A stretch of 64,000 nucleotides of DNA from Cyanocohniella sp. LLY (GTDB lineage: Bacteria > Cyanobacteriota > Cyanobacteriia > Cyanobacteriales > Nostocaceae), in NCBI GenBank assembly GCA_022241785.1, contig JAKOMP010000015.1, positions 1 to 64,000 of the forward strand, written 5' to 3'. The translations under genes and the position numbers were made by a program. Of this stretch, positions 13,869 to 17,797 are shown in pieces. The notes below the pieces were generated by a model. The model worked only from the letters and a program-made list of their open reading frames with translations. It did not search any database and was not told the origin of the DNA. The first letter of the stretch is position 1. Each line of letters opens with the position of its first letter.

Positions 13869-15203
13869 ATGAAAAGTTTGTTAATGCACAGTCCTGTAGT
13901 CGTAGCAGCAGGTTGGATAGGGGCTTATATATTTATTACCGTTTTGCCCCTACTAATTTTGCTCATATATCGGCCGACAGGTAGAGAGTTTTGGACTGAA
14001 TTTTCTGTGGCTTTGGGTTTCATTGGTCTAGCGATGATGGCGCTACAATTTGCCCTCACAGCCCGTATCAATCGCATAGAAGCATCCTATGGTGTTGATA
14101 TCATTCTGCAATTTCACCGCTACATCTCTTTAGTAGCATTTGCCTTTATTCTGATTCACCCATTAATTTTGTTCGTGGTGCAGCCAGAAACGCGAGCGCT
14201 GTTAAACTTTTTTACAGCCCCTTGGCGTGCTAGAGCCGCAGTTTTAGGGACTTTAGCCTTAATTTTGTTAATTGTCACAACAATTTGGCGTCAACAGTTG
14301 AAAATTCCCTATGAACCTTGGCGCACATCTCATGGGATTTTGGCAGTCCTGGCAATTAGTTTGGGGCTAGCACATGGCTTAGGGGTAGGCTATTACTTAA
14401 ATCTGTTTTGGAAAGCGGTTTTGTGGACAGCGATCGCGCTGACTGCCCTCTGGCTACTGATATATGTGCGTTTAGTCAAACCCATGTTCATGACCAAAAA
14501 GCCTTATCTCGTAGAAGAAGTACGTCAAGAACGGGGAGATGTCTGGACATTAGCATTAAGACCTAGAGGACACGAAGGTTTTCAGTTTCAGCCTGGTCAA
14601 TTTGCTTGGATTACCTTGGGTATATCACCATTTCGGATGCGAGAACATCCTTTTTCCATGTCATCTAGCGGAGACAATACTGAACGCATTGAGTTTAGTA
14701 TCAAGGCATTGGGAGACTTTACCAAAAGAATCAAAGACGTAACACCCGGAACCAAAGCTTTTCTTGACGGCCCCTATGGAGTTTTCACCACTGACAGGTA
14801 TGAAGATACGGCTGGATTTGTCTTAATTGCCGGTGGTATTGGGATCACGCCGATGATTAGTATGCTATTAACCCATGCAGAACGCCAAGATGAACGCCCT
14901 TACATATTAATCTATGCCAGCAAAACTTGGGATGACGTTACTTTCCGTGAAGAACTGCATGAATTGCAGCAAAAATTAGACCTAACCGTTGTCCATGTCC
15001 TCAAAGATGCTCCAGAAGATTGGTCAGGGGAAACAGGCTATGTAGATAAGGAACTCTTAGGACGTTATCTACCCAAACGTAGAGGTACAAGGCAGTATTT
15101 TATTTGTGCATCACCCAAAATGATGGATCAGGTAGAAGCAGCGTTGCATCAACTGGAGGTTCCCACAACTAATATCCACATGGAACACTTTAATCTGGTT
15201 TAA
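13869..15203 (+). CDS. NOX/ferric-reductase-like flavocytochrome (FRD plus FAD/NAD domains)
   Basis: 444 residues. Six or so TM helices (about 10-200) carry two bis-heme His pairs, H83/H97 and H155/H169, each 14 apart, as in the ferric-reductase/NOX family. The cytosolic half has the FAD motif REHPFSMSS (about 258-266), GPYGVF and the pyridine-nucleotide motif AGGIGITPMIS (321-331). Electrons from NAD(P)H would cross the membrane to an acceptor outside (Fe(III), Cu(II) or O2). Located 13 bp after sodA. Which acceptor is used cannot be read from sequence. Confidence 0.85.
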   Translation: MKSLLMHSPVVVAAGWIGAYIFITVLPLLILLIYRPTGREFWTEFSVALGFIGLAMMALQFALTARINRIEASYGVDIILQFHRYISLVAFAFILIHPLILFVVQPETRALLNFFTAPWRARAAVLGTLALILLIVTTIWRQQLKIPYEPWRTSHGILAVLAISLGLAHGLGVGYYLNLFWKAVLWTAIALTALWLLIYVRLVKPMFMTKKPYLVEEVRQERGDVWTLALRPRGHEGFQFQPGQFAWITLGISPFRMREHPFSMSSSGDNTERIEFSIKALGDFTKRIKDVTPGTKAFLDGPYGVFTTDRYEDTAGFVLIAGGIGITPMISMLLTHAERQDERPYILIYASKTWDDVTFREELHELQQKLDLTVVHVLKDAPEDWSGETGYVDKELLGRYLPKRRGTRQYFICASPKMMDQVEAALHQLEVPTTNIHMEHFNLV

Positions 15204-15307: not shown

Positions 15308-15532
15308 ATGCGCTACAGCATCATGCTTCAATTGGTGACAGGCATCACCACAATTTTAGTGGGTACTGCTGCCTTCTTTGCTTGGTTACAAACTCGTTCT
15401 TCTCCCAGAGAAACTACAGTCACACGCAATAGTGAGTATTTCACGTCGTATTACTTTATTTATTCTGTCAGTTCTGGCCGCGATCGCACTCATTTTGATT
15501 GCATCTCCCGCAGTCATCATCCCTCCACCTAA
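15308..15532 (+). CDS. Possible small membrane protein overlapping the DUF2459 start
   Basis: ATG at 15308 opens a 74-codon frame whose first 45 residues look real: one TM helix (about 6-27) and a short polar tail (WLQTRSSPRETTVTRNSE). After that it overlaps the DUF2459 gene out of frame for 101 bp and composition becomes unconvincing (Arg/His/Ser-rich). Either it is a genuine overlapping gene, or a small gene has lost its own stop. No family recognised. Confidence 0.3.
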   Translation: MRYSIMLQLVTGITTILVGTAAFFAWLQTRSSPRETTVTRNSEYFTSYYFIYSVSSGRDRTHFDCISRSHHPST

Positions 15533-16016
15533 ACCAATCCAGCCAGTCACCGTCTACGTCATTGATCAGGGTTTACATTCCCGATTAGTTTTACCCGATA
15601 ATGACAACAAATTAATTCAATATGCTTATGGTGATTGGCGTTACTTTGCATTAAACCAGCAAAACTTGGGTAGTGGAATTGCTGCACTGCTGATTCCTAC
15701 TCAGGGAACCCTCGGTAGAAGAGAATATCAAGACTTAGCCGAGATGAAGCAGACTCTCAATAGCAATAACAGTGTCCTGAGTTTTCCCGTAGCCCAACTT
15801 GACGTGATCCGGCTAAAACAATCATTGGATAAACGCTTTAATCAAAATATTTCCACCCAAATATTCAACCCGCTAAATAAAATGTACTTTGTGCAAGACG
15901 ATTTAGATTACACCTTATACCACAATAGTAATCATGAATTAGTTGTATGGCTAGAAGCATTAGATTGTCGAGTTGAAGGCTTTGTTCTGTTAGCTGATTT
16001 TAAAATATCAGAATAA
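15432..16016 (+). CDS. DUF2459 (TIGR02117-like) membrane-anchored protein
   Basis: From GTG at 15432 the protein is 194 residues: an N-terminal TM helix (about 8-30), then the conserved VTVYVIDQGLHSRLVLP, YAYGDWRYFALNQQNLGSG and PTQGTLGRREYQ blocks of DUF2459. The frame is open upstream to 15378, but those 18 residues are not hydrophobic-signal-like, so GTG is preferred. Function unknown; the domain faces the periplasm by topology. The C-terminus (LLADFKISE) is shorter and less conserved than usual. Confidence 0.7.
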   Translation: MSISRRITLFILSVLAAIALILIASPAVIIPPPKPIQPVTVYVIDQGLHSRLVLPDNDNKLIQYAYGDWRYFALNQQNLGSGIAALLIPTQGTLGRREYQDLAEMKQTLNSNNSVLSFPVAQLDVIRLKQSLDKRFNQNISTQIFNPLNKMYFVQDDLDYTLYHNSNHELVVWLEALDCRVEGFVLLADFKISE

Positions 16017-16126: not shown

Positions 16127-16284
16127 CTCTTAGCACTTTTCAAAGAGATAGAGCCGCTGACTAAAAACTTTTATTTTATTAAGCCTTTCTATTTCATCCA
16201 TAATGCTGATTGCATTTATGTCAGATAAATAGGAAAATTAGTAAGTTGAAAAATTTATAGAATTTAGCAAATTCAGTTATGTCT

Positions 16285-16305
16285 ATGAAACTTACTAAAA
16301 AAAAA
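16285..16305 (+). other. A9 run splitting the reading frame of the downstream gene
   Basis: An ATG at 16285 (another in frame at 16279) starts MKLTKKK and reaches nine A residues at 16297-16305; in that frame translation ends at a stop at 16339-16341. The other frame, open from 16299, gives TDIHRNLWRERLIAILALIN and flows directly into the 16365 gene. One extra A, or a -1 slip on the run, would join the two into a sensible N-terminus with a first TM helix. Confidence 0.65.
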
Positions 16306-16364
16306 CTGATATTCACCGCAATCTCTGGCGAGAACGTCTAATTGCCATTCTTGCTTTAATTAAT

Positions 16365-17699
16365 TTGATGTTGGTGTTTTTTGATATCAGCTATCTATAT
16401 GCACGGGATTTTTATTTACAAATTATCCCCAGTCTTGTGCAAAACTACGACCCAATTAAAGGTATTAAACCTCATCCAGAAACCGAGAATTATCTTCAGC
16501 AAGTAGAGACATTAGAAGCCCAAGTTATAGCCTCTGGCTTACCATCGCCTCAAGTAGAAACAGAATTAGCCCAATTACGTCTACTAAGTTTACAAATCAT
16601 TGAAGATAATCCCTTTGCTGTAGCAGATAAAAGCAGTACTCTGGAAAAAATTCAAGACGAAATGCGTCAACGAACAGGAATTACTTCTGCTCGTAATGCT
16701 TTTGCTAATTTTTGGAGTCAAGCCTACCTTCAACAAGCTGGTTGGCAACAAGAAATTGATTTTTGGAATAGTGAAATTCGCCATTTGATTCAAGCAAATT
16801 ATTATCGAGACATTAATAAATATGGTAAATTTATTGACTATTTTTGGCTAATTGATTTGCCATTTGTAGTGATATTTGCTTTAAACTTTTTATCGCGTAC
16901 CTTTCAAACCAGTCGCCGCAATCCTCATCTCAATTGGTTAGAAGCAATGTTGCGCCGTTGGTATGATTTTTTCTTAGTGATTCCTGTAGCTCGATGGTTG
17001 CGAGTTATTCCCGTAACTATTCGTCTTTACCAAGCAGAATTATTAAATCTTGATCCTTTCAAGGCACAAATTAACCATGACTTTGCTGTGGGATTCGCCC
17101 AAGAAATGACAGAAATGGTGGGTGTTCAAGTCATAGATCAAATGCAAGACTCAATTCAACGAGGAGATGTTTCCCGTTGGTTGTTTCACCCAGAGTCTCG
17201 TCGTCCTTATGTACAAATAAATAACCAAAATGAAGCAACAGTGATTGCCAATCGCTTGGTAAAAGTTAGCATCTATGATGTTCTACCGCACATCCAGCCT
17301 GATATCGAAGCTTTAATACATCACACTATTGCAAGTACCTTAAATGAGTCTCCTGTATTCCGACAATTGCAAAATTTTCCGGGATTAAATCAATTACCTC
17401 ATCAATTAACTGAACAATTAGCGGCAAATTTAACGCAATCTGCTTACACAACCTTAGTGAAAGCATTAGAAGACCCCGTTGGTGCAGAAATAACTGCTAA
17501 ATTAACCAAGAATTTTCGGGAGATATTAGAGAACGAATTGCAGAAAAAGCATAATCTCCGTGAACTAGAACAATTACTTGTAGATATGTTAGAAGAAGTC
17601 AAAATTAATTACGTGAAAAATCTCGCAGAAGGAGGTATCGAAAAAGCTGTAGAAGAAGTGGAAAGTTTACAAAGAAAATTTAATCGTTATAGAGAGTAG
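16365..17699 (+). CDS. Conserved cyanobacterial membrane protein, N-terminus out of frame
   Basis: The uninterrupted part begins with TTG 16365 / ATG 16368 and encodes 444 residues. It starts in the middle of a TM helix (LMLVFFDISYLYARDFY), has a central membrane pair (about 165-185 and 199-217, with ARWLRVIPVTIRLY), and a long helical C-terminal half ending in a charged coiled coil. The expected start lies upstream in another frame across an A9 run (16285-16305). It resembles a large uncharacterised family in filamentous cyanobacteria; no function known. Its TAG stop lies in the first unit of a heptamer array. Confidence 0.7.
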   Translation: MMLVFFDISYLYARDFYLQIIPSLVQNYDPIKGIKPHPETENYLQQVETLEAQVIASGLPSPQVETELAQLRLLSLQIIEDNPFAVADKSSTLEKIQDEMRQRTGITSARNAFANFWSQAYLQQAGWQQEIDFWNSEIRHLIQANYYRDINKYGKFIDYFWLIDLPFVVIFALNFLSRTFQTSRRNPHLNWLEAMLRRWYDFFLVIPVARWLRVIPVTIRLYQAELLNLDPFKAQINHDFAVGFAQEMTEMVGVQVIDQMQDSIQRGDVSRWLFHPESRRPYVQINNQNEATVIANRLVKVSIYDVLPHIQPDIEALIHHTIASTLNESPVFRQLQNFPGLNQLPHQLTEQLAANLTQSAYTTLVKALEDPVGAEITAKLTKNFREILENELQKKHNLRELEQLLVDMLEEVKINYVKNLAEGGIEKAVEEVESLQRKFNRYRE

Positions 17700-17749
17700 G
17701 GAGTAGGGAGTAGGGAGTAGGGAGTAGGGAGTAGGGAGTAGGGAGTAGG
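17694..17749. repeat. Heptamer tandem array (GAGTAGG)x8
   Basis: Eight perfect 7-bp units. The first unit includes the TAG stop (17697-17699) of the preceding gene, so the array begins inside the coding sequence. Shorter relatives occur at 26361-26388, 28880-28915, 43872-43902 and 44076-44105. Confidence 0.95.
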
Positions 17750-17797
17750 GAATCAAAACAAGTGTTAGCAATTGTCAATTACATGAGGTGTGTATAA

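Follow-up and report, generated by a model that had tools for sequence, protein, structure and literature searches.

A nine-A run interrupts a membrane-protein gene in Cyanocohniella and two Nodularia genomes and is a probable site of transcriptional slippage

A gene for a membrane protein in the cyanobacterium Cyanocohniella sp. LLY is interrupted near its 5' end by a run of nine adenines (A9). Because this break is kept in two species of Nodularia and the protein encoded beyond it is under strong selection, we consider it most likely, with a probability of about two in three, that its expression depends on transcriptional slippage that adds one A to the message. A sequence-only reading of this DNA had listed slippage among several possibilities; persistence of the break under selection in three genomes makes it the best remaining one. 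Comparison of the genomes marks the run as a conserved recoding site; we infer that slippage occurs there, that it arises mainly during transcription, and its rate. Positions given below are those of ‘the window’, by which we mean the whole 64,000-nucleotide stretch analysed (contig JAKOMP010000015.1, positions 1 to 64,000, forward strand).

The run occupies positions 16297-16305 of the (+) strand. An ATG at 16279 and a second ATG at 16285 lie in a common frame that enters the run after six codons and reads MSMKLTKKKLIFTAISGENV; this short frame (16279-16341, + strand) ends at TAA 16339-16341, and its product has 20 residues. The frame that encodes the membrane protein (16299-17699, + strand) comprises 466 codons and a stop at 17697-17699, and it opens immediately behind TAA 16296-16298. 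Its first ATG, GTG or TTG codon is TTG 16365 and the next is ATG 16368, both of which fall within the codons of the first transmembrane (TM) helix (16335-16397, + strand; LIAILALINLMLVFFDISYLY). Passage from the ATG frame into the long frame requires one additional A, or a slip of -1. The earlier claim that the frame of ATG 16285 and the TM frame are one base apart at the run is thus confirmed. No other A or T run of nine or more occurs on either strand of the 64-kb window, the G+C content of which is ~40%. The pattern ATG-N15-A9-C, which was derived from the site itself, matches once in the 6.78-Mb genome, and its reversed control matches twice.

Transcriptional slippage would act here as follows. 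Counted from the A of ATG 16279, the run begins 18 bases on, and it interrupts the frame on the DNA. RNA polymerase would slip on the nine A, and a fraction of the mRNA would acquire one extra A. From these messages the full protein would be made, ~473 residues from ATG 16279 and with its first TM helix complete; unslipped mRNA would yield the 20-residue peptide alone.

Strongly hydrophobic stretches occur at least twice in the protein, and its C-terminal part is long and helical. In the AlphaFold2 model, residues 6-42 of the main open reading frame (ORF), which include the first hydrophobic stretch, form a helix (block pLDDT 82-86 over most of its length), and the second stretch (16842-16895, + strand; FWLIDLPFVVIFALNFLS) lies in a helix of residues 182-207. 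The model is poor past residue 250, and its mean pLDDT is 64.3 and its pTM 0.45. Searches with the window protein gave no Pfam match above the cut-off and no NCBIfam match, no match in PDB sequences at E <= 0.001 (best 0.22), and no fold match to the model in Foldseek at E <= 0.001. The segment 16842-17040 (FWLIDLPFVVIFALNFLSR...LRRWYDFFLVIPVARWLRVIPVTIRLYQ) is reminiscent of the S2-S4 segments of voltage sensors, a likeness that has no support from database matches. The family to which the protein belongs is widespread: 212 of the 217 genomes of the window's family contain a match, as do 371 of 388 genomes sampled from its order. Two copies are present in the window genome: the A9 gene, which we term class A, and a paralogue with its frame intact, termed B (G000:C179:80908-82266) and 47% identical to the first. 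Judged by score, class A occurs in ~30 of the 217 family genomes, at 57-82% identity to the window copy.

The closest class A copies come from a single genus, Nodularia, and were found in G101 and in G099 (Nodularia sp. LCM1.Bin15, REBL01000142.1). In both, ATG-ACA-ATG is followed by three further codons and then by exactly nine A, at the same offset as in the window and with an early stop past the run. The three copies form one clade in the tree (support 100/100), so the A9 may stem from a single event. Alignment of homologues, proposed earlier as a check on whether the run is conserved, shows it at the matching place in G101 and G099; every intact copy in the clade, three in number, has A9. 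The break goes beyond chance, since two further species retain this run with its offset. Conservation of AAA codons was considered as a proof of constraint and rejected as too weak: the chance that three lysine codons are all AAA in three genomes is ~0.23.

Selection acts on the shifted frame. Over the long frame, dN/dS is 0.12 between the window and G101 (dS 0.90), 0.11 between the window and G099 (dS 1.02), and 0.14 between G101 and G099 (dS 0.43). These low values match those of the intact paralogue B (0.09-0.21, six pairs) and of five neighbouring genes compared between the window and G101 (0.06-0.16), which indicates that the frame-broken gene is under constraint equal to that of intact genes. 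A recent mutation or a sequence error, as the earlier reading allowed, is very unlikely given an A9 at equal offset in G101 and G099, dS of up to 1.02 and dN/dS of 0.11-0.14. That the gene is dead or dying, or that one assembly error was made three times over, is most improbable. In favour of a dead gene, class A is absent or deleted in three Nodularia genomes: G098 and G100 have paralogue B alone, and G102 has lost the class A start and most of the gene, its 109 C-terminal residues being joined to the upstream ORF. Against it stand dN/dS at the level of intact genes and a long frame of 464-466 codons with no other stop in the window, G101 and G099, which are three separate assemblies. Since three of five genomes of the genus are without an intact copy, the class A gene is dispensable within Nodularia.

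Translation could in principle begin inside the long frame, at TTG, GTG or a rare start such as AUU or CUG, with the short ORF as a relic or a leader. The window does have TTG 16365 and ATG 16368, and ATT codons stand at codons 15, 17 and 21 of the long frame in all three genomes. We nevertheless regard internal initiation as very improbable. The first usual internal start varies (TTG at codon 23 in the window, TTG at codon 10 in G101, GTG at codon 26 in G099), none that is common to the three was found ahead of the first TM helix, and TTG 16365 lies within that helix. Residues encoded ahead of TTG 16365 are conserved in the protein family, A16 and N22 being invariant in 33 sequences. The 20 codons from the A9 run to TTG 16365, the window's first usual start, were compared separately. 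Silent changes numbered 6.0 of 16.0 sites and replacing changes 5.0 of 44.0 in the first pair (p 0.03), 8.0/15.8 and 6.0/44.2 in the second (p 0.006), and 3.0/17.2 and 1.0/42.8 in the third (p 0.065), an excess of silent changes that is significant in two of the three pairs. Changes in these codons are mostly silent, which argues that this stretch is also translated in the long frame.

Most class A relatives begin at, or about three codons from, the place where the window gene would begin if its frame were whole. An in-frame start precedes the first TM helix in 56 of 61 homologue loci, and the suggestion that homologues might start at the position of 16368 is thereby contradicted. Starts at 16365 or 16368 were rejected, since internal starts differ within the clade and relatives start upstream. 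The count is restricted to these 61 loci (53 of class A and 8 of paralogue B), and leaves out other class A matches that were listed without a locus; L034 was excluded (it is from the same genome as L006), and L035/L044 and L036/L060, which have identical start regions, are apparently duplicate genomes. Within the family, the majority of class A loci have their start 17 codons ahead of the anchor Arg in a RERLIAI/FERLIAI motif, the place of ATG 16279 when the missing base is counted; in the sister group the distance is 14 codons. Five loci have no such start: those of the three A9 genes, that of G188, and L025, the G033 locus, whose TTG is in the wrong frame.

Beyond the Nodularia clade, the frame is intact in every examined class A locus but two. 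In G188 (L024/L147, G188:C303:4500-8500) a run of eight A just past the start breaks the class A frame, whereas the run in the sister genomes G185 and G189 is A9 and in frame; dN/dS stays low, at 0.21 between G188 and either sister, and 0.20 between the sisters. In G033 (L025/L144, G033:C142:39500-42500) the class A gene is broken by nine T within the first TM helix and the remaining frame is open; between G033 and G035, dN/dS is likewise low (dN 0.046, dS 0.46, ratio ~0.10). The sequence presents the G033 T9 as a second, independent 5'-end homopolymer break in the class A family. Both cases are from one assembly each, and may be recent, may be errors, or may be further slippage sites. Stops within the gene were seen as one TAA in L009 and one TAG in L048.

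These breaks bear on phase variation, in which run length would shift during replication and some cells would express the protein while A9 cells would not. The gene suits this reading in that it encodes a membrane protein and has its run near the 5' end, as do the two further breaks in the family, and in that length differs in another genus (A8 in G188, A9 in G185 and G189). Phase variation would predict mixed lengths, however, and all three clade genomes have A9. Nine A is also short for a contingency locus, and we judge phase variation quite unlikely.

Programmed -1 ribosomal frameshifting into the long frame would give an identical product. The heptamer A_AAA_AAA, of the X_XXY_YYZ type, is in phase with the frame of ATG 16279, the direction of the slip fits, and the shift has the same direction in the window, G101 and G099; constant direction leans toward ribosomal shifting according to the portion of the GeneTack authors' paper (PMC3711429) drawn on here. 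Against this, the region upstream of the run is without a Shine-Dalgarno-like motif (AGGA, GGAG, GAGG or AAGG) in all three genomes, and RNA folds in the ~80 nt past the run (z -0.64, -1.36 and -1.60) differ from one another, none being significant or common. Ribosomal frameshifting is unlikely in our estimate. We prefer transcriptional slippage because nine A is a published slippage length, because no ribosomal stimulator was seen, and because a transposase with a comparable joint has runs of different length in two genomes (9 and 10). The gene shows three properties of transcriptional slippage genes: a run of at least nine A/T at the joint, a length kept in those homologues that need the shift, and a shifted frame under purifying selection. 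In the relevant passages of Baranov 2005 (PMC1088944), a run of nine with length conserved among homologues is held to be very likely purposeful slippage. Counting against slippage, Traverse and Ochman (PMC5574713, in the part used here) detected no frame-restoring transcription error in E. coli or Buchnera.

The transposase, of IS630 type, is in G101, where A9 links its HTH_Tnp_IS630 half to its DDE_3 half in the same 0 to -1 layout as in the membrane gene; a related copy in the window genome has A10, and its shifted part holds one TGA. Across 1.2 Mb of G101, in a census that counted A runs of at least eight and left out coding-strand T runs, there were 123 runs, 19 of them of at least nine. 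Six places had a break-like layout. Judged by eye, the IS630 transposase accounts for one of them, in two others the long ORF has a start codon soon past the run, and the remaining three concern short ORFs. Among these six, IS630 alone was compared with a family library. Five other runs of at least nine are in frame inside ORFs of at least 100 codons, and the only convincing break among runs of this length is that of IS630.

Conserved slippage sites known so far are mostly in insertion sequence (IS) elements, in a few chromosomal genes (dnaX) and in AT-rich endosymbionts. The present candidate is unusual in that the gene is not mobile and sits in the large genome of a free-living cyanobacterium. 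One group of comparable IS elements is found in Nostoc, which belongs to the same bacterial family as the window's organism (Nostocaceae). IS elements with A8-A10 in Nostoc sp. PCC 7120, which PMC1088944 lists in the portion cited as users of transcriptional slippage, and in Deinococcus and others, are alike in having an A run at the joint of two frames and a conserved shifted frame; they differ in that their two-ORF layout serves transposases, whereas the window gene is non-mobile and has its run 18 bases past the reading-frame start. The slippage-corrected poly(A) frameshifts of Buchnera and Blochmannia, as described in the sections of PMC3017870 consulted, likewise concern cellular genes that carry a poly(A) indel and show no decay in at least two species, but these are AT-rich, reduced endosymbionts with >100 long poly(A) tracts in genes, and the window genome is 6.8 Mb, with ~40% G+C in the window and A9 rare there. 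Thermus dnaX, in the relevant excerpts of PMC1088944 and PMC3711429, also has A9 in a chromosomal gene; there it is reading without slippage that yields the full-length product, and slippage a shorter one, whereas the unslipped product of the window gene is 20 residues. Among open-licence PMC papers none was found that deals with this gene or with Nodularia slippage, and the parts of two papers on cyanobacterial frameshifts that were covered (PMC10272220 and PMC3542288) hold nothing on this gene.

Slippage may be just tolerated at this site, the gene product being needed in small amounts. A bolder and doubtful proposal is that A9 is a throttle: RNA polymerase slippage would fix how much of the membrane protein is made full-length in the Nodularia clade, keeping that fraction low or varying it with conditions, and 5'-end runs (A9 in Nodularia, A8 in G188, T9 in G033) would represent an expression switch evolved repeatedly in free-living cyanobacteria. 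With its frame broken in species as far apart as a dS near 1, this non-mobile gene provides a clean natural system for measuring cyanobacterial slippage. An annotation pipeline, for its part, could label such a selected gene a pseudogene or trim its first TM helix.

The surroundings of the gene have features of their own. Tandem repeats of the GGGAGTA type extend from its stop codon (17690-17750). Upstream, an ORF at 15378-16016 has TTG as its sole listed start and is without a Pfam match. In G102 (L067, 5595-6302) a deletion has joined the initial portion of its counterpart in frame to the last 109 residues of the class A gene, which makes a chimeric ORF of 235 aa. Farther upstream, a 444-aa ORF resembling a transmembrane oxidoreductase (13869-15203) is shortened to one of 92 aa in G101 (L068, 6761-7039).
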